Below, piece after piece: positions 2,958 to 25,723 of a stretch of DNA of 39,569 nt. Below the pieces are notes generated by a model that did not search any database, was not told the DNA's origin, and was given only the letters and a program-made list of their open reading frames with translations. How positions within the stretch are numbered: position 1 is the first letter of the stretch; each line of letters begins with the position of its first letter. The position numbers and the translations under genes are program-made. The stretch covers positions 1 through 39,569 of the forward strand of contig JAGCXM010000023.1 in NCBI GenBank assembly GCA_017961325.1, written 5' to 3'. The DNA is from a bacterium (GTDB lineage: Bacteria > UBP6 > UBA1177).

Positions 2958-4229
2958 ATGATTGTAGAAATTAGGGCAGAAAACGCTTTTATATTTAATG
3001 AAAAAGTAGTCTTTTCTTTGGAAGCGGATATGAGAACGAAGAAATTCGTTTCTAATGTATGTTCATTTGGAAACTTTAATATAGTAAAAGTCGCCGGCAT
3101 CTATGGTCCAAACAATGTCGGAAAGACTAATTTGATTAAATGTATCAGAGCTATTATCGAGGTACTACTGAATAAAGGATTTAAAATAAATAGAAATCTT
3201 TTTTCTAAAAGCAATATTGTTTCTTTGGGTATTTCTTTCATTTTTGAAAACAGATTCTTCTCCTATGATTTTAAGTATGATGTCAAAAAAGAAGAGTGTG
3301 TTTATGAAATGTTTGCAGAGGTAACAAAAGATTCTTCAGGAAACAAAATTAAGGATAGGTGGCTAGAAAGAGATGTCGCGAATGCTAAGCCACTCTATGC
3401 AAAAGATGAGAAAATGCGCAATATACTCGGCATGGTGGCTCGCAACAACATACTTATTCATTTGGTAAATACTGAACATTTTGAATATATTAAGGAAATG
3501 AAGCGTGTTTTAACTAGTTTTGCCGAAAAGGTTGATGTTGTTGATATGAACAATATTCCGATACAGAAAACTATAGATGTGTTAAAAAGTAAAAACTCTA
3601 TCTGTGATAAAATGGTGAATTTTATAAAAAACGCTGATTTGTACATGGATGATTTCTATTTTGCAGATGCTAAACAGTTAAAAATAGTTCCATTTCATGA
3701 TAATTCCAAACCTCAGGAAAATGTTCTGGATGATTTGCCGGAAGAACTTGTCGAGAAAATGCGCCTTACAAGTGTGTATAAAGGCAAGCCTTTTCCTGCT
3801 CTTTTGTTTGATTCGACTGGAACGAAAAAAATAGCTTCTTTGGCAAGTTATATAATAGATGCATTGGAAAAGGGTCGTATTCTTATTGTTGATGAACTTG
3901 ACAGTAGTATACATTTCAAATTGGCCAGAGCTGTTGTTGCTATGTTTAACAATGAACTTAATGACAAAGCTCAGCTTATTTTTACTGTTCACGATGTCAC
4001 TTTGATGGACTGCCAAAAGTTGTTCAGAAAAGAACAAATATGGTTTGTACATAAAGATTCAACTGGAGTCTATCTTTATTCTCTTGCTGAATTTTCTGCT
4101 AAAGACGGAATTCGTAATACGAGTGACTTGGTGGCAAAATACAAAAAAGGAGTTTTGGGGGCATTGCCTGAGCCTGAATTGATAAATTCTCTGTTGGAAA
4201 TTCATTCAAAAGAGGTGCCAAATGAGTAA
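2958..4229 (+). CDS. AAA/ABC-type ATPase of a two-gene defence-like module
   Basis: 423 aa, with GGAG upstream of the ATG. The N-terminus (IRAENAFIFNEKVVFSL) and Walker A GPNNVGKT (residues 50-57) are typical of OLD/RecF-like AAA_15/AAA_21 ATPases. An STGTK signature-like stretch precedes Walker B ILIVDELD (D312-E313), and TVHD (H345) fits the H-loop. The last 8 nt overlap the TOPRIM-like gene, so the two are translationally coupled. Known pairs of this design (AbiLi/AbiLii, RloA/RloB, PARIS AriA/AriB) use the ATPase as sensor or scaffold and the TOPRIM protein as nuclease. Base composition is clearly AT-richer than the flanks, consistent with transfer. Exact family assignment needs a profile search. 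Confidence 0.8.
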   Translation: MIVEIRAENAFIFNEKVVFSLEADMRTKKFVSNVCSFGNFNIVKVAGIYGPNNVGKTNLIKCIRAIIEVLLNKGFKINRNLFSKSNIVSLGISFIFENRFFSYDFKYDVKKEECVYEMFAEVTKDSSGNKIKDRWLERDVANAKPLYAKDEKMRNILGMVARNNILIHLVNTEHFEYIKEMKRVLTSFAEKVDVVDMNNIPIQKTIDVLKSKNSICDKMVNFIKNADLYMDDFYFADAKQLKIVPFHDNSKPQENVLDDLPEELVEKMRLTSVYKGKPFPALLFDSTGTKKIASLASYIIDALEKGRILIVDELDSSIHFKLARAVVAMFNNELNDKAQLIFTVHDVTLMDCQKLFRKEQIWFVHKDSTGVYLYSLAEFSAKDGIRNTSDLVAKYKKGVLGALPEPELINSLLEIHSKEVPNE

Positions 4230-4860
4230 ACCCAAGCTTTTATCTGCAGAAAATAGAGTGTGTATTATTTGCGAAGGGCTTGAAGAGTATGATTATCTTA
4301 AAAAAATAAAAGAGCTTAATCGTTGGAATAAAAAGTACAGTGTAGATTTGAGAAATGCCAGAGGAATTGGAAGAATTTTTGCAATATATCAGGATAGATT
4401 TCAAAACGGAAGTTATGATGCGATTTTAATTTTTTGCGATACTGACAAGAAACCATTTAAACCCTATCTTGAAATGAAAGAGAAAATAGATGAATTCCAT
4501 GGTGTGGCAAAAGGTAAAATCAGTAATCAAATCACTATTTTCGGCAATCCATGTACTATGCAGATAATTATAATGCATTGGGCTAATATTAACCTTAGAT
4601 CAAATTCAAAAACTGTCAATGCTCCAATTATAGCACAATATACCGGTATAAAAGGATATAAGGCGCGTGATAAACAGCGTGAAGCTATGATGAGCCAGAT
4701 AAATCGTGGAAATTATTCAGACATGATTTCGCGAGTATCAAATTTATCGCATGATTATAGGCAGTTAAACAGTAGCAATTTCGATGAGTTTATGAAATAT
4801 TTGGAAGGCAAGAATACTGATTGGATTGAAAAGATCAATACTGCTATCTCCGAAAAATAA
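4222..4860 (+). CDS. TOPRIM/RloB-like partner protein
   Basis: 212 aa. The N-terminus RVCIICEGLEEYDYL (E18) and the later strand DAILIFCDTDKK (D73, D75) give the Glu plus DxD set of a TOPRIM-like metal site, as in RloB/AbiLii and OLD-family nucleases. The C-terminal half (HWANINLRS, KARDKQREAMMSQI) is helical. It starts inside the ATPase gene (ATGAGTAA overlap). Length fits RloB (about 200-230 aa) better than PARIS AriB. The likely role is a metal-dependent nuclease effector held in check by the ATPase; this follows from the family and is not shown by the sequence. Confidence 0.7.
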   Translation: MSKPKLLSAENRVCIICEGLEEYDYLKKIKELNRWNKKYSVDLRNARGIGRIFAIYQDRFQNGSYDAILIFCDTDKKPFKPYLEMKEKIDEFHGVAKGKISNQITIFGNPCTMQIIIMHWANINLRSNSKTVNAPIIAQYTGIKGYKARDKQREAMMSQINRGNYSDMISRVSNLSHDYRQLNSSNFDEFMKYLEGKNTDWIEKINTAISEK

Positions 4861-6081: not shown

Positions 6082-6118
6082 TGACACGATGTCAAAATAA
6101 ATAATTGACACGATGTCA
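6082..6118 (-). promoter_or_regulatory. Paired operators and promoter of the minus-strand flavodoxin gene
   Basis: Two identical TGACACGATGTCA sites (6082-6094 and 6106-6118), 24 bp apart. Read on the minus strand, TTGACA lies in the gene-proximal site and TAAATT or TATAAA follows 14-16 bp later, giving a promoter that bound repressor would occlude. Confidence 0.7.
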
Positions 6119-10379: not shown

Positions 10380-10396
10380 TAAATCGGAATGATAAG

Positions 10397-10409
10397 TGAC
10401 ACAAAGTCA
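10397..10409. promoter_or_regulatory. Hybrid operator-like site
   Basis: TGACACAAAGTCA joins the left half of the island operator (TGACAC) to the right half of the TetR-promoter palindrome (AAGTCA). ATAATGTTCG follows at 10412-10421, as at other promoters, but no matching -35/-10 pair is visible. Confidence 0.4.
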
Positions 10410-10460
10410 GAATAATGTTCGCAACTGATTTTACCATTAAACCAAGAAAGTCTTTGTAAT

Positions 10461-10652
10461 TTTTCTCCAAAAACCTTGCCATTTTCTGCCCTTTCTTTAT
10501 TATACTTTGCGTTGATTTTATGCACCTTTTATTTCGAGGATTTCATGAAAAAAATTATTATTTTCGGACTTTTTTGTGTGTCACTTATGATTCTTGGCTG
10601 CGGAGACAGCGGCAATTCTGGAAAAACTACCGATAACGGCAACGATTCAGGT
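10461..10652. repeat. Leader repeat, copy 2 (paired with 1281-1472)
   Basis: Same gap-free leader as copy 1: promoter-like sequence, RBS, signal peptide and the start of the mature lipoprotein. After about 10650 the two genes diverge completely in their stalks. Confidence 0.9.
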
Positions 10653-11609
10653 CGTGAAATGGGCTCGCTTTACGGTGAATGCTATCCAAACGAAACCTGC
10701 GACAAAGGACTTGAATGTGATGTTGAGAACAATATCTGCATTAAAGAATCTGAAAACTCGGAAAATTCTGACGACACAGACACTACATCGGAAAACAAGG
10801 AAGACAAAACCGATACAGATTCGGAAATTTCAGACAATGAGAGTGATTCGACAACAGATTCGATGTCGGATGATAAAACTGAAGATTCAACAAACAACGA
10901 TGATGACGCAAACAATGACGACGACAACGGCTGTACTACCGGCGCATACAAATGTAAAGACTCAAACTCTTATTTCTGTAAAGGTGATTTGTGGACTTTT
11001 GAAAAATATTGTGAGTACGGCTGTGACTCAGCAACAGGAAAATGTAAGACTACGGAGTGTAGTGGAAACGAATATACCTGCTATTACGAGTATACCTCCA
11101 GACATTGTGAAAACGGGCATTGGAAAACCGAATCCTGTGAAGGCGGTTGTGATCAGACAACAGGTAAATGCCGGGATTTCTGCTACAATATAACAGGAAA
11201 AACATGGTCACGAAAAGCAGAAACCAAGAAAAACTGGGAAGAGGCGCTCGATTACTGTGATAAACTTACGGCATGCGGACACTCCGACTGGCATCTTCCG
11301 ACAATCAGTGAACTTCGAACTCTTGTTCAGAATTGTCCTGCAATCGAAACTGGTGGAAAATGCGGTGTCACGGATGACTGCCTGTCTTACCCAGAATGCT
11401 GGACGGAGAACTGCAGCATGTGCTCGTCAGATTCTAACGACTACAGCAAAATAGATGACTTTAGCATCTGTCTCTGGTCGTCCTCTGTCGTTCATGATAA
11501 TTACACAGAAGCCGCTTGGAATATTTACTTCTTTTCTACGTTTGTGGATTTAAGCAGTGCAAGCAGCAACCTGGCCAATGATGTGCGCTGTGTAAGAAAT
11601 GCGAATTAA
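10545..11609 (+). CDS. Cys-rich DUF1566 surface lipoprotein, paralogue 2
   Basis: 354 aa from the ATG at 10545, same start context as the gene at 1365. The lipobox is MILGC. An early Cys segment (GECYPNETCDKGLECDVENNICI) precedes a long Asp/Ser/Thr/Asn stalk (residues about 65-125). Two similar Cys repeats follow, each ending in GCD-x-x-TGKC. The C-terminal DUF1566-like domain (TWSRKAETKKNWEEALDYC, SDWHLPTISELRTLVQNC, DVRCVRNAN) is probably an extracellular ligand-binding fold. It borders the second AT-rich module, as its paralogue borders the first. Function unknown. Confidence 0.8.
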   Translation: MKKIIIFGLFCVSLMILGCGDSGNSGKTTDNGNDSGREMGSLYGECYPNETCDKGLECDVENNICIKESENSENSDDTDTTSENKEDKTDTDSEISDNESDSTTDSMSDDKTEDSTNNDDDANNDDDNGCTTGAYKCKDSNSYFCKGDLWTFEKYCEYGCDSATGKCKTTECSGNEYTCYYEYTSRHCENGHWKTESCEGGCDQTTGKCRDFCYNITGKTWSRKAETKKNWEEALDYCDKLTACGHSDWHLPTISELRTLVQNCPAIETGGKCGVTDDCLSYPECWTENCSMCSSDSNDYSKIDDFSICLWSSSVVHDNYTEAAWNIYFFSTFVDLSSASSNLANDVRCVRNAN

Positions 11610-11663
11610 AATTATAATTAGACAAAACAATGAGGAATATTGAGGACGCGTTAGAATACAAGA

Positions 11664-13268
11664 ATGATTGAGCATGAAAACATATATCGTAATGCAAAGA
11701 AGTTCCGCGCCAACAAAGATTTCCAACAGCTTTTAACCCAGGGAAATATTGCTTTCTACTCAGGTTGTGAAGTTACTCAGATTTTTTTGTTCGATCAGTT
11801 AAATAGAAAAGCTATTAATTACTTTTCATTATTTACATTTGATGAAATTGAAACTGTTGAAGACAAGCCTCGTTTTTTATTGCCTAAATTAAAGAGAATT
11901 GACTCTCTTTACTCGCTTGGAGTCCAACAGCAAAGAATATCTCTTGATACGGCTAAACAAGTATTTGCAGAAATTCAAGAAGGAAGATTGAATTATGATG
12001 AAAATTGTGATGTTTCAAAGAATTTAGTTTTGTTGCCAAAAACTTATGTCCCGGCTCTTTCTATAAATTTTCCAGTGTTTCTGAATTCAATTTTAAAACC
12101 AAATTACTGGGGAGACAATTACATAATAGAATTTTTTGATGAATCAAAAGAACTTTTTGTTTCAGACGAAAATGCACGAAGTAAATTTGATCACATAAAT
12201 ACAATAGTCAAATCAATTCCAGCAATAAAAATAGATTTGTCAACGGCACACGACAGGATCGGTAATATTATTTTTCAATTTCCGATTACAATTTTAAAAA
12301 CGAAAATATCTTCAGAAAAGGATTCAGTAAATTTGAGAATCCAAGCGCGATACCATCCTAAAGTTTCGAAGGCTAAAAATTTACATATCGAAATGTTTAC
12401 GACCTATGACAATATTATTTCAGGTTTTAATGCAATAGATACAGACTCTAAAGAAATCAATAATGTCTTGGAAGTAGGCGACGATAATAATCTGAACATT
12501 ATATTATCAGAAAAAGAAACAGGGTTAATACTTCGCAATTCAAAAATCATTTTTTGTAAAAGTGCAAGTTTTTGCGGTCATATTGGAACCGGAATGGAGC
12601 CTAGAACTATCCGTTTTAAAGATGGTAAAGAGGAAAAAATAGAATTATCATATTTACATAGGTTTGTTGATACGCGTGAAAATAATTACTACAATATTAT
12701 ATCAAGGCGCAATCAAAATAATGAAATTCTGTTAAAAAGTGGAGATTATAAACTTTTGAAATCCGACCAGAGAGAGGATGCTTTAGAATATATTAGAAAG
12801 AAAATTCGAAGTCATAGCAATGTGGCAGAAATCTGTTTATGGGATCCCTATCTAACAGCCAAAGATATTATTGAGACATTGTATTTTGAAGACACTGGTA
12901 TGCCATTCCGATGTATAACCAGTTATCAGAAGTCAAAAAAAATAACGGAAACAAAAAATGATTTTGATAGTTTTCGCAAAGAACAAAAGTTGTATTTTAT
13001 GAATAACTCCAATAATCTTGGAGTAAAGATGAAATTTTTAGCTCAACATGACAATTATGGTTGGAAATTTCATGACAGGTTCTTAATTTTTGTTCCTCAA
13101 GCTTCTACGGATTTACCTATAGTTTATTCATTGGGAACATCAGTTAATATCATTGGTAAAAATCACCACATTATTCAAAAAGTAACAAATCCTAAAGAAA
13201 TATTGGAAAATTTCGAAGAATTGTGGAAATCGCTGGACAATGAGAATTGTATTGTAGCCGAGTTTTAG
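11664..13268 (+). CDS. PLD-like protein of an uncharacterised two-gene module
   Basis: 534 aa, strongly AT-rich; the start has no clear RBS. Residues about 1-370 form a large N-terminal region I do not recognise (IAFYSGCEVTQIFLFDQLNRKAINYFSL; RPPLE-type motifs absent). The C-terminal part looks like a phospholipase-D-fold domain: ICLWDPYLTAKDIIETLY (about residue 395), then FHDRFLIF (H470, D471, R472) and SLGTSVNIIGKNHH (G491-T492-S493). HDR replaces the canonical HxK and GTSvN replaces GSxN, a variant seen in PLD-like proteins near defence genes. It is followed 9 nt later by a helical partner. It may cleave or sense nucleic acid; this is inference. I cannot name a family with confidence (a VPA1262-like family is one possibility to test). 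Confidence 0.6.
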   Translation: MIEHENIYRNAKKFRANKDFQQLLTQGNIAFYSGCEVTQIFLFDQLNRKAINYFSLFTFDEIETVEDKPRFLLPKLKRIDSLYSLGVQQQRISLDTAKQVFAEIQEGRLNYDENCDVSKNLVLLPKTYVPALSINFPVFLNSILKPNYWGDNYIIEFFDESKELFVSDENARSKFDHINTIVKSIPAIKIDLSTAHDRIGNIIFQFPITILKTKISSEKDSVNLRIQARYHPKVSKAKNLHIEMFTTYDNIISGFNAIDTDSKEINNVLEVGDDNNLNIILSEKETGLILRNSKIIFCKSASFCGHIGTGMEPRTIRFKDGKEEKIELSYLHRFVDTRENNYYNIISRRNQNNEILLKSGDYKLLKSDQREDALEYIRKKIRSHSNVAEICLWDPYLTAKDIIETLYFEDTGMPFRCITSYQKSKKITETKNDFDSFRKEQKLYFMNNSNNLGVKMKFLAQHDNYGWKFHDRFLIFVPQASTDLPIVYSLGTSVNIIGKNHHIIQKVTNPKEILENFEELWKSLDNENCIVAEF

Positions 13269-13277
13269 GAGTGTTTT

Positions 13278-14807
13278 ATGAATAAATTCTTGGCTGAAGA
13301 CTTGAAGAATGTTGATTTTATTTCGAGTTTGTATGATGCATTTGCCTCTATAATAAATATAAATAAGAAATGCGACGAACGATTATTACATGATTTTTGT
13401 AAAGAAATTTCAGAGATGATATTTAATTATTCATCCGTATCCTGCAGACAAAATACAAATTTAAATGATAAGCAACTTACAAAAACAAAAGAATGTCTCT
13501 TGATTGCTGTAAGATTGTTTGATGAGGCTTGTGAAGAAAATAATTTAAAAAAACTTCTGATATCACTGCGTATTTTTGATTTTTTTGACCAGAATTGTGG
13601 GCTGATTGAAATATCAAAAATTCCTGAAGATTTAAAAAATAAAATTGTTGGCATTTTAAAAACAACAGATTTTGAAATAAATTTTCCAAAGCATACTTCT
13701 TATAGTGAAAAGGAAATGCTAGAGATTCTCAATAATACAAAAATAAGCACTGATTATTCAGAAGTAATTGGCATTATAGATGGTATTATGGATGTGTTCA
13801 TTCTTCAAAATGTTTTTTGGGATATCAAAAGCACATGGGGAATTTTAATAAATTTTGCCAGTTGCCTTGATAAGAAAATAATATTAGATGTTTTAAACAG
13901 TACAGATAGCTGTAAGAAAATAGAATTGTTTTTTTCATCTTTAGAGAAAGAATTTTTTTGTGATATGTCTTTTGCTTCCGAGTTGAAGAATAATTATCTT
14001 GTCTTGCGGGTTTTTAAATACTGGTTGCTTTCCCTTGAGGATAAATATTGGAAATTTAATAAGTTAGAAGAAATTCCTGATTATACAGATTACTTAACAA
14101 GCATGTTTTTAAACTCAAATTTACATCTTGAAAATTACATCGAAATTTTACGAATATCGCATCTGAAAAGCTATAATTATCTGTTGGGAAGACTGGTTGC
14201 CTTGCACGAGAATTTTTTACACATTTACTTGAATCACATTTCTTTTGGAAAAGAAGAAACTCAAGCATTTTCTTTAGGCTTTTTAGAAAAAACAGACTGC
14301 TCAGCGGATAATGTTGTAACTAATACTATAGAACAAATAAAATCAAAGTTTTTGGCACATGAAATACATTCATACTCCAACATAAATTTTTATACCGGTT
14401 TTTTAGATTTGTTTTGTTATTATTTTCGCATAAAAAATCCAGATAGAAATGCTTATTTAAAAACTTTAGCAGACTATTCAGAAAAAATACTGTCTGAACA
14501 GAACTCTTGGAATCATGAGGCTGTAAAATCGGTGTGGGTAGATTTTTATTATTTTTGTTTGTCCAACATTGTAGGAAAATATGTTTTTTCTGAAAATGAA
14601 TTGAGAACAGTAATCCCTGCATTGTTTGATGAACGTAATGAAGTGATTTACGATATAAAATCGTTAAATGTGATGAGAACACTTTTGATGACACCAAACA
14701 AACAGATAAAAATAATAATTAAGCCGAATGTTTTACTGCAATATTTAATTGAAGTCGAGGAAGAAGAAATGATAACTAAGGAGCAACCCAATGACCAACA
14801 TAACTGA
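13278..14807 (+). CDS. Large helical protein, partner of the PLD-like protein
   Basis: 509 aa, very AT-rich, ATG preceded by TAGGAGTG. No motif is recognised. The sequence is rich in Leu, Ile, Lys, Asn and Phe and reads as successive amphipathic helices (KECLLIAVRLFDEACEEN, LKKLLISLRIFDFFDQ, HLENYIEILRISHLKSYNYL), suggesting an all-alpha repeat scaffold. There is no signal peptide or membrane segment. It is coupled to the upstream PLD-like gene (9-nt gap) and its last 17 nt overlap the AlbA_2 gene in another frame. A sensor or scaffold role is inferred from gene order only. Confidence 0.6.
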   Translation: MNKFLAEDLKNVDFISSLYDAFASIININKKCDERLLHDFCKEISEMIFNYSSVSCRQNTNLNDKQLTKTKECLLIAVRLFDEACEENNLKKLLISLRIFDFFDQNCGLIEISKIPEDLKNKIVGILKTTDFEINFPKHTSYSEKEMLEILNNTKISTDYSEVIGIIDGIMDVFILQNVFWDIKSTWGILINFASCLDKKIILDVLNSTDSCKKIELFFSSLEKEFFCDMSFASELKNNYLVLRVFKYWLLSLEDKYWKFNKLEEIPDYTDYLTSMFLNSNLHLENYIEILRISHLKSYNYLLGRLVALHENFLHIYLNHISFGKEETQAFSLGFLEKTDCSADNVVTNTIEQIKSKFLAHEIHSYSNINFYTGFLDLFCYYFRIKNPDRNAYLKTLADYSEKILSEQNSWNHEAVKSVWVDFYYFCLSNIVGKYVFSENELRTVIPALFDERNEVIYDIKSLNVMRTLLMTPNKQIKIIIKPNVLLQYLIEVEEEEMITKEQPNDQHN

Positions 14808-16275
14808 CACTGTAACGAACCTGATTTCGCTTCCGCACGAATACGAATGGCTCGATTTCAAGGAAAACTGGTTTTCAAAGGACGAAATCGGCGAATATAT
14901 TTCCGCGATTTCCAACGGCGCGGCTTTGAGCGGGCGGGAATACGGCTATATTGTTTGGGGAGTGAGCGACAAATCGCATGAAATCACCGGAACAACGGTT
15001 AATTTCGACAAGGATATCGAGCACGAACCTTACAAACATTACCTTGCACGCAACTTAAAGCCGAGTCTTGCGTTCGAAGTCGAAGAGGCTGAAATTTCCG
15101 GCAAAAGAGTCGTTTTGCTGACTGTTCCTGCCGCGAAATCCGTTCCGACAAAGTTCATGAATCAGACATTTATCCGGATTGGTTCAAGCAAAGAGAAACT
15201 TTCAAAATTTCCAGAATGGGAAATCCGTCTGCTGAACGTGCTTTCAAACGGAATTCCTACTATCGTGAACACTGCCGCACCTGATTATGCGCAGGATCTG
15301 ACTTTCGAGAAACTCTTTTTGTATTACGGTGCAAAAGGGATCAGACTCAGACGTGACACCTTTAAGAAAACGCTCAAACTGCTGACAGCAGACGGCCGCT
15401 ACAACATAATGGCACTCCTGCTTGCCGATTCAAACGATATTCCGATCCGCGTTTCCGTTTTCAGCGGAAAAACCAAGGCTGACACTCTTTTTTCCGTGAA
15501 AGAATACGGAAATTCCTGCATTTTATATTCCATGGATAAAATACTGGAATACGGCGACGCGATAAACATCATTCAGGCTGACGAGCGAGGGCGGATCTCG
15601 GAACGCAAAGATGTCCCTCTTTTTGATTACGAGGCTTTTCACGAAGCACTTTTGAATGCTTTCATCCACAACAAATGGCTTGCCATGAATGCCCCGATGA
15701 TAAGCGTGTTCACCGACAGAATAGAAATCGTCTCCCACGGCGGGCTTGCGACAGAACAGGATCTCGAAGGTTTTTATAATGGAGTCAGCATTCCAGTTAA
15801 TGAAGCACTTGCCTCTATTTTTCTCCAGCTCAGGCTTAGCGAGCGTTCAGGGCGCGGTGTTCCGACAATCGTCAAGGCATACGGACGCGATTCAATCACT
15901 GTCAAAAAGAATTTTATCGTAGTCACAATTCCCTTCAACAAAATAGATGCCGCACCTTTTGAATTGAATGCCGGTGAGGAAGGAAATGTACAGAAAAACG
16001 AAAAAAGTGACCAGAAATTGCACCATAATTGCACTGTAACTGCACCCGAAACTGAAAATTTGCACTGTAATTGCACTGTAAATGTTCCGGAAATTGCACT
16101 CAAAACATTTATGGCCTTAAAAGAAAATCCACACGCAACAGCAAAAGATTTAGCGAAAATGTTGGGTTTGTCTTTGCGTACCATAAAAAATCATGTAGCT
16201 ATTTTAAAGCAAAACGGCTGTATTGTCCGTATAGGCAGTGATAAATCAGGTCACTGGGAAATTGTAGAAAAATAA
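14791..16275 (+). CDS. AlbA_2/Schlafen-type putative DNA-binding protein with winged helix
   Basis: 494 aa with AAGGAG ahead of the ATG. The N-terminal AlbA_2 domain contains EYEWLDFKENWFSKDEIGEYISAISNGAAL and EYGYIVWGVSD; QTFIRIGSSKEKL is its usual end. A middle segment (FHEALLNAFIHNKW, ISVFTDRIEIVSHGGL, ERSGRGVPTIVKAYG) matches the HATPase_c_4-type region of RecG-like regulators. A winged helix closes the protein (NPHATAKDLAKMLGLSLRTIKNHVAILKQNG). Between them lies a near-duplicate stretch with two CTV/NCTV blocks. Base composition returns to that of the host island here, so it may predate the AT-rich pair inserted before it. Role as regulator or third component is open. Confidence 0.8.
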   Translation: MTNITDTVTNLISLPHEYEWLDFKENWFSKDEIGEYISAISNGAALSGREYGYIVWGVSDKSHEITGTTVNFDKDIEHEPYKHYLARNLKPSLAFEVEEAEISGKRVVLLTVPAAKSVPTKFMNQTFIRIGSSKEKLSKFPEWEIRLLNVLSNGIPTIVNTAAPDYAQDLTFEKLFLYYGAKGIRLRRDTFKKTLKLLTADGRYNIMALLLADSNDIPIRVSVFSGKTKADTLFSVKEYGNSCILYSMDKILEYGDAINIIQADERGRISERKDVPLFDYEAFHEALLNAFIHNKWLAMNAPMISVFTDRIEIVSHGGLATEQDLEGFYNGVSIPVNEALASIFLQLRLSERSGRGVPTIVKAYGRDSITVKKNFIVVTIPFNKIDAAPFELNAGEEGNVQKNEKSDQKLHHNCTVTAPETENLHCNCTVNVPEIALKTFMALKENPHATAKDLAKMLGLSLRTIKNHVAILKQNGCIVRIGSDKSGHWEIVEK

Positions 16276-16298
16276 CTGTCAATCCGACCAGACAGAAA

Positions 16299-16338
16299 TT
16301 GACACGGTGTCATTTTTATTTATTCTGACACGGTGTCG
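16299..16338 (+). promoter_or_regulatory. Operator-promoter of the cyclophilin-like lipoprotein gene
   Basis: O2 TGACACGGTGTCA (16300-16312) contains the -35 TTGACA (16299-16304). The -10 TATTCT (16321-16326) abuts O3 TGACACGGTGTCG (16326-16338). The spacer is 16 bp. ATGAGGTTCG (16341-16350) follows. This is the cleanest promoter of the set. Confidence 0.82.
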
Positions 16339-16366
16339 AAATGAGGTTCGTTTTTTCGGAGGTTTT

Positions 16367-17970: not shown

Positions 17971-18006
17971 TGACACGATGTCAAAATAAAAATTGACACG
18001 GTGTCA
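17971..18006. promoter_or_regulatory. Paired island operators upstream of the TetR gene
   Basis: TGACACGATGTCA (17971-17983) and TGACACGGTGTCA (17994-18006), 23 bp apart. TTGACA (17993-17998) is present but no good -10 follows at 16-17 bp, so these may act with the nearer TetR promoter. Confidence 0.65.
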
Positions 18007-25661: not shown

Positions 25662-25723
25662 TGACACGGTGTCAAAATAAAAATTGACACGGTGTCGTTT
25701 TTGTCTATTCTGACACGGTTTTG
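25662..25723 (+). promoter_or_regulatory. Triple operator and promoter of the CDF unit
   Basis: O1 TGACACGGTGTCA (25662-25674), O2 TGACACGGTGTCG (25685-25697) and O3 TGACACGGTTTTG (25711-25723). The -35 TTGACA (25684-25689) lies in O2 and the -10 TATTCT (25706-25711) abuts O3, with a 16-bp spacer. Same geometry as at 9116 and 16299. The ATGTTCG box is missing here. Confidence 0.8.

Follow-up and report, generated by a model that had tools for sequence, protein, structure and literature searches.

A near-obligate gene pair encoding an altered PLD-fold protein and a helical partner as a candidate mobile defence module

Introduction

Two adjacent, AT-rich genes of a bacterium of the UBP6 lineage (UBA1177) raise the question of whether they form a defence system of a kind that has not been described. 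They lie in a stretch of 39,569 nucleotides (assembly GCA_017961325.1, contig JAGCXM010000023.1), referred to here as the window, and a reading made without database searches (the sequence-only reading) had proposed that the first, gene A, encodes a nucleic-acid-cleaving effector and the second, gene B, a sensor scaffold. Both PLD effectors and two-gene defence systems made of an effector and its partner are kinds already known.

We hypothesise that A and B constitute an undescribed mobile two-gene defence module, in which A is a PLD-fold effector and B its solenoid partner, and we favour this reading with guarded confidence. It rests on the predicted folds, a conserved motif, the near-obligate pairing and co-divergence of the two genes, their distribution, which is patchy and mobile, and a degree of proximity to defence genes. 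The main rival explanations are a module of the toxin-antitoxin type and a PLD domain that is catalytically inactive and serves binding only.

The locus and its immediate surroundings

Genes A and B are encoded on the same strand with a spacing of 9 nt (Table 1). Their coordinates and lengths were confirmed, as was their low GC content (30.9% in A and 28.5% in B, with 42.9% in the window as a whole). Upstream of A lie a gene for an iron-containing alcohol dehydrogenase and one for a lipoprotein with an Lcl_C domain. The suggestion that the pair occupies an exchange slot is supported by a relative (genome G014) that has an empty site, where the equivalents of window positions 10389 and 16361 are separated by only ~20 nt; since the alcohol dehydrogenase gene there directly abuts the lipoprotein gene that lies after the slot, window ~10390-16360 is absent from that genome.

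Table 1. Coordinates of the features discussed, in the window unless a locus is named.
Feature	Position	Strand	Basis or remark
Gene A, 534 aa	11664..13268	+	ORF; NF040700 (VPA1262 family) match and AlphaFold model
Gene B, 509 aa	13278..14807	+	ORF; helical AlphaFold model; homologues in 85/92 A loci
β-rich N-terminal part of A, ~residues 34-326	11763..12641	+	Strand-dominated secondary structure in model
PLD-like domain of A, ~residues 342-534	12687..13265	+	Foldseek; weak profile matches to ORF6N/RhuM-type proteins
LWDPYL motif of A, residues 392-397	12837..12854	+	W393, D394 and P395 invariant in 74 sequences
H470-D471-R472 (HDR), altered HKD motif of A	13071..13079	+	Invariant in 74/74
GTSVN...G...HH of A, residues 491-502	13134..13169	+	G491, S493, N495, G498 and H501 in 73/74
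AlbA_2/Schlafen-type gene	14791-16275		Overlaps B by 17 nt
AbiL-type pair, AT-rich like A-B	2958-4860		AAA_21 ATPase, AbiLi E 6e-67; 212-aa partner, weak AbiLii E 2e-8
Three-gene variant loci	L176:7723-12034; L185:6187-10480		A motifs HDRFIAID/HDRFLVVD

A palindrome, GACACGRTGTC, was also observed in pairs ~23-26 nt apart at window positions 6083-6117, 16301-16337, 17972-18005 and 25663-25696. Taken singly, the word gives 23 strand matches across the window where 0.38 would be expected, and of the genome's five exact pairs four fall in the window. Such pairs may serve a local regulon as operators, or an exchange region as recombination sites.

Two neighbouring features had been linked to the pair. 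An ATPase/TOPRIM pair said to lie opposite A-B does exist, as AbiLi with a weak AbiLii, but it is on the same strand with several unrelated genes between and is a separate locus. The sequence-only reading also had A-B running into an AlbA_2 gene, and here the 17-nt overlap is real; together with an overlap of 4 nt between the AlbA_2 gene and B in a related MAG, it would suit a three-gene system that includes the AlbA_2/Schlafen-type gene. However, AlbA_2 accompanies A-B in this genus only, with one match (L011) among 95 loci, and homologues that are 87-88% identical occur without A-B in four genomes (G001, G007, G010 and G013). AlbA_2 was accordingly rejected as a third component and is not part of the module, a three-gene system being highly improbable.

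Family and fold of gene A

Gene A belongs to NCBIfam NF040700 ("VPA1262 family"), which it matches with an E value of 1.7e-50 and 172.2 bits over residues 115-522, the curated cut-off being 80 bits, and it is the sole member above that cut-off in its genome (172.3 bits in the whole-genome search). The N-terminal ~370 residues, earlier described as unrecognised, are in fact reached by this match. NF040700 is a named family to which no function is assigned, so that A does have a known family, but not a known non-defence one that would contradict the proposed role. No convincing match for A was obtained in Pfam, PADLOC or PDB sequences; Pfam yielded no usable result for A or for its homologues, neither A nor B had a relative among PDB sequences, and in no case was a full-length match to a viral structure library convincing.

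An AlphaFold model of A, built on an alignment of 74 sequences (pLDDT 91), runs from a helix through a β-rich part, which ends at about residue 326, to an α/β C-terminal domain from about residue 342. The β-rich part is presumed to be a recognition or assembly domain; over its whole length A matches β-sandwich enzymes of the PDB only poorly (rmsd 12-25). For the C-terminal domain, Foldseek returned NucT (6ehi), Zucchini (4gem), FAM83 (4urj) and TDP1 (8cw2), each with probability 1.00, and the PLD-like C-terminus proposed from sequence is therefore also what a fold search on the predicted structure gives. The PLD half in addition has weak matches to many proteins of ~300 residues in related genomes. 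The three that were inspected are of ORF6N/RhuM type in appearance and carry HDRFIILD or HDRFLxID followed by GASxKDxG, as in HDRFLIID...GASLKDLG.

An altered active-site region

The altered motif of the sequence-only reading was found as described, with HDRFLIF at residues 470-476 and GTSVN at 491-495, and F469 and F473 are likewise invariant among the 74 A sequences. Relative to the canonical HxK(x)4D, the lysine has become arginine and the aspartate position is mostly proline (mostly HDRFLIFP), with SxN kept. Most of the 74 sequences were fetched by patterns containing FHDRF, so the invariance of HDR is partly built in; in a pattern-free check, six of seven plasmid homologues found by tblastn were aligned and all six have the FHDRF motif. 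HDR is also present in six fused VPA1262 proteins and in members of NF040700 that have a different operon. Three loci from other branches of the family (L176, L185 and L186) retain the aspartate, as HDRFxxID or more generally HDRFxxxD, which makes its loss a trait of the A-B branch.

With the lysine of HKD now arginine and the aspartate gone, catalysis by A may be weak, changed or absent. One rival explanation follows this line to its end and takes the PLD domain to be non-catalytic, with A-B binding nucleic acid and, for example, blocking replication or packaging of phage or plasmid DNA. It draws on these two substitutions in the A-B branch and on the retention of HDRFxxID in other NF040700 branches; yet H470, D471, R472, S493 and N495 are near-invariant across great divergence, as would rather be expected of a working site, and we regard a binding-only role as unlikely.

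Single-motif PLD nucleases act as dimers, use a histidine nucleophile and are metal-independent. A resembles two of them, NucT of H. pylori and Zucchini/PLD6, in its C-terminal fold and in having a single His motif per chain plus SxN. It differs from them in having HDR without D rather than HxK(x4)D, and in adding a β-rich domain of ~340 residues and a dedicated solenoid partner.

Gene B and its pairing with A

Gene B matches no family of Pfam, NCBIfam or PADLOC. Its AlphaFold model (67 sequences, pLDDT 87) is helical along the full length, in keeping with the earlier remark that only helices were visible. Its fold matches are weak and of karyopherin/HEAT type, none reaching E<=0.001, and the model is most economically described as a probable α-solenoid.

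Homologues of the two genes do occur together. In an iterative profile search a B homologue was found downstream of A in 85 of 92 A loci, and in 81 of these 85 the two ORFs overlap or are no more than 20 nt apart, overlap being the usual case. Four of the seven A loci that lack B are contig ends. The others are a locus with A and no B (L028), one with a 604-aa ORF that has no detectable similarity to B (L060), and a Methanobrevibacter locus with an FRG-domain gene in place of B (L037). The last locus also has a diverged A-like gene of 404 aa (34.6 bits) and, after it, a gene of 393 aa, directly upstream of the second A gene, which is the one with the FRG-domain neighbour (L037:3570-5925).

The distance matrices of A and B, compared over 63 loci, are strongly correlated (Mantel r 0.91, against a maximum of 0.11 in 2000 permutations). 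That A distances predict B distances in this way points to co-inheritance, and A and B probably form a complex.

Two individual copies may be recorded here. In Oceanimonas sp. CHS3-5 an in-frame TAG splits A into two ORFs while B is open (L068:5950-7596), and this A copy is possibly decaying. Identical A proteins were found in MAGs of different Bacillota families (L029, Peptococcaceae UBA5318; L053, Syntrophomonas UBA5288), reflecting either recent transfer or a binning error.

Other architectures of the family

In some members of NF040700 an A-like half is followed by ~550 more residues in a fused protein of ~1100 aa (L184 and L188-L192). A profile-profile comparison of A with the N-terminal half of the fused VPA1262 proteins gave an E value of 4e-8 over 467 columns. 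Homology between B and the C-terminal half was considered and rejected (hhalign probability 0.3); since B is not similar to that half, the fusion supports a link between A and B by position only. A three-gene variant in Vibrio and Pseudomonas consists of A, a protein of ~214 aa with its own HDR motif and a protein of ~650 aa (Table 1), and two further loci (L186 and L187) have A plus a gene of 645 or 700 aa. In all these architectures the A-type region is joined to, or precedes, another large protein.

Distribution and mobility

A was found in Spirochaetota, Fibrobacterota, Bacillota, Bacteroidota, Pseudomonadota, Campylobacterota, Acidobacteriota, Chloroflexota and others, and in the archaeon Methanobrevibacter; one archaeal locus (L069) has both A and B. 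Within a lineage it is rare, being present in 6 of 197 Vibrio species genomes and 5 of 200 Pseudomonas genomes (the query genome counted in each), in 2 of 369 genomes of the class of the Vibrio query (again with the query genome included) and in 2 of 15 genomes of the genus of the window.

Some A-B loci are carried on plasmids. Another has a tyrosine integrase next to it, within an element that encodes a P4-like primase (L092), and a further one adjoins P2-like tail genes (L093); P2-like phages and P4-like satellites are known to carry hotspots of antiviral systems (PMC9122126). When E. coli genomes were searched for the A-B pair of the P4-like element none was found, the integrase alone giving matches. 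VPA1262 itself sits on the V. parahaemolyticus island VPaI-6, which is present in 24 of 41 isolates, the other 17 having an empty site (PMC1464126).

This distribution also bears on a different rival, in which A-B performs mobile-element housekeeping such as DNA processing, repair or transfer and has no defence role. Carriage on plasmids, a satellite, a prophage and genomic islands, with integrases close by, is what such a role would lead one to expect. Against it, the pair is rare per lineage and occurs in unrelated elements and in chromosomes, including that of an archaeon, and no adjacent replication or transfer partner is consistent across loci; housekeeping of this kind is quite unlikely.

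Defence genes in the neighbourhood

The surroundings of A-B were compared with other regions of the same genomes. Proteins of the two closest ORFs to either side of 33 loci, 130 in all, were searched with PADLOC models at E <= 1e-45, with 129 proteins from elsewhere in those genomes as a control. Matches were found for ~11-13 of the 130 neighbours vs 3 of the 129 controls (one-sided Fisher p 0.01-0.03), and the neighbours of A-B are thus enriched in defence genes above the controls, the enrichment being modest because each PADLOC family name is counted as one protein. The matched neighbours are a CBASS cyclase, a phospholipase effector, an E2, ThsB of Thoeris, LmuA of Lamassu, PifA, AbiEi, MTase_II, PDC-M71A, PDC-M62B, PDC-S05 and two reverse transcriptases, which may be group II introns. 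Among annotated neighbours on plasmids are restriction endonucleases, reverse transcriptases and a CBASS cyclase accompanied by an S-4TM effector, and several other neighbourhoods hold metabolic or mobile-element genes without defence genes. Proximity to defence genes and carriage on mobile elements agree with a defence role.

A toxin-antitoxin-like addiction module would show some of the same features. In such a module B would neutralise A, a toxic nuclease, the pair stabilising plasmids and islands with any effect on phage secondary, and the obligate, overlapping and co-diverging arrangement, its presence on plasmids and islands, and the other toxin-antitoxin genes that are often adjacent all suit it. 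Both proteins are, however, large, B is unlike the DNA-binding antitoxins, and an A-like half also occurs within single proteins of ~1100 aa, which is odd for a toxin with a removable antitoxin. We consider an addiction module unlikely.

Relation to known systems

The closest named relative is the VPA1262 family. A shares with it the match of 172 bits over residues 115-522 and the HDR motif; it differs in that the family protein is a fused single gene of ~1100 aa with ...HDRxILI...LSNSxQ..., whereas the window has two genes and HDRFLIFP...GTSVN...HH, and in that A stops after the PLD domain, the fused C-terminal region being missing. The PADLOC candidate PDC-S05 matches 18 of the 74 A proteins weakly, in the PLD part where this was examined, and it matches the PLD half of the L186 relative with E 1e-11; A of the window has no PDC-S05 match. 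PDC-S05 and the ORF6N/RhuM-type HDR-PLD proteins differ from A in being single proteins of ~300 aa with another N-terminal domain and no B partner. DISARM (DrmC), Dpd and Druantia III share with A-B a mobile defence setting in which a protein with the PLD fold is the presumed effector (PMC12458937, PMC9142583). They are, however, tied to a YprA-family helicase; the one partner seen conserved with A across the loci is B, on flanks covered only in part for helicases.

PADLOC-DB 2.0.0 (2023 version) has no model that matches A or B of the window, and across their homologues it gave only the weak PDC-S05 matches to A and sporadic others. In the literature found, in which subscription journals are thinly covered, VPA1262 occurs only in two V. 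parahaemolyticus papers and NF040700 nowhere, and the searched parts of the DefensePredictor, YprA and BREX surveys do not mention the family. The view that no described system has exactly this pair thus agrees with the PADLOC models and with this literature, a later description elsewhere being possible. It is the pair, its architectures and its defence context that are undescribed in these sources; the name of the A family was already known.

Proposed mechanism and implications

We propose that A would be the effector, its β-rich domain bearing a PLD-fold domain with one altered motif (HDR plus SxN), and that two A subunits would pair to form one active site around H470, R472 and N495, as in NucT and Zucchini; the candidate nucleophile, acting on a nucleic-acid phosphodiester, would be H470. 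B would be an α-solenoid scaffold, co-translated with A, that binds A and holds it inactive or positions it, and may carry part of the recognition of the invader. Infection would then release or activate A, which would attack nucleic acid. The complex of A with B, the dimerisation of A, its nuclease activity, its target and protection against phage are what we infer for this module.

A broader proposal, for which we would give a little less than an even chance, is that NF040700 represents a widespread and undescribed antiviral class of bacteria and archaea. It would comprise several architectures (A with B; the fused form; A with a second HDR-PLD gene and a ~650-aa gene) around a core formed by a β-rich/HDR-PLD effector and a large partner, with a PLD site lacking the classical lysine and aspartate.

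What is now defined is the co-occurrence of the two genes, their boundaries, the motif residues, and cultured hosts in Vibrio, Rhizobium, Clostridium and Flavobacterium. If the proposal is correct, a family that was named by a pipeline and is uncharacterised would be the core of a defence system found across about ten phyla and in archaea, and a PLD site used in defence would work without the classical lysine and aspartate.
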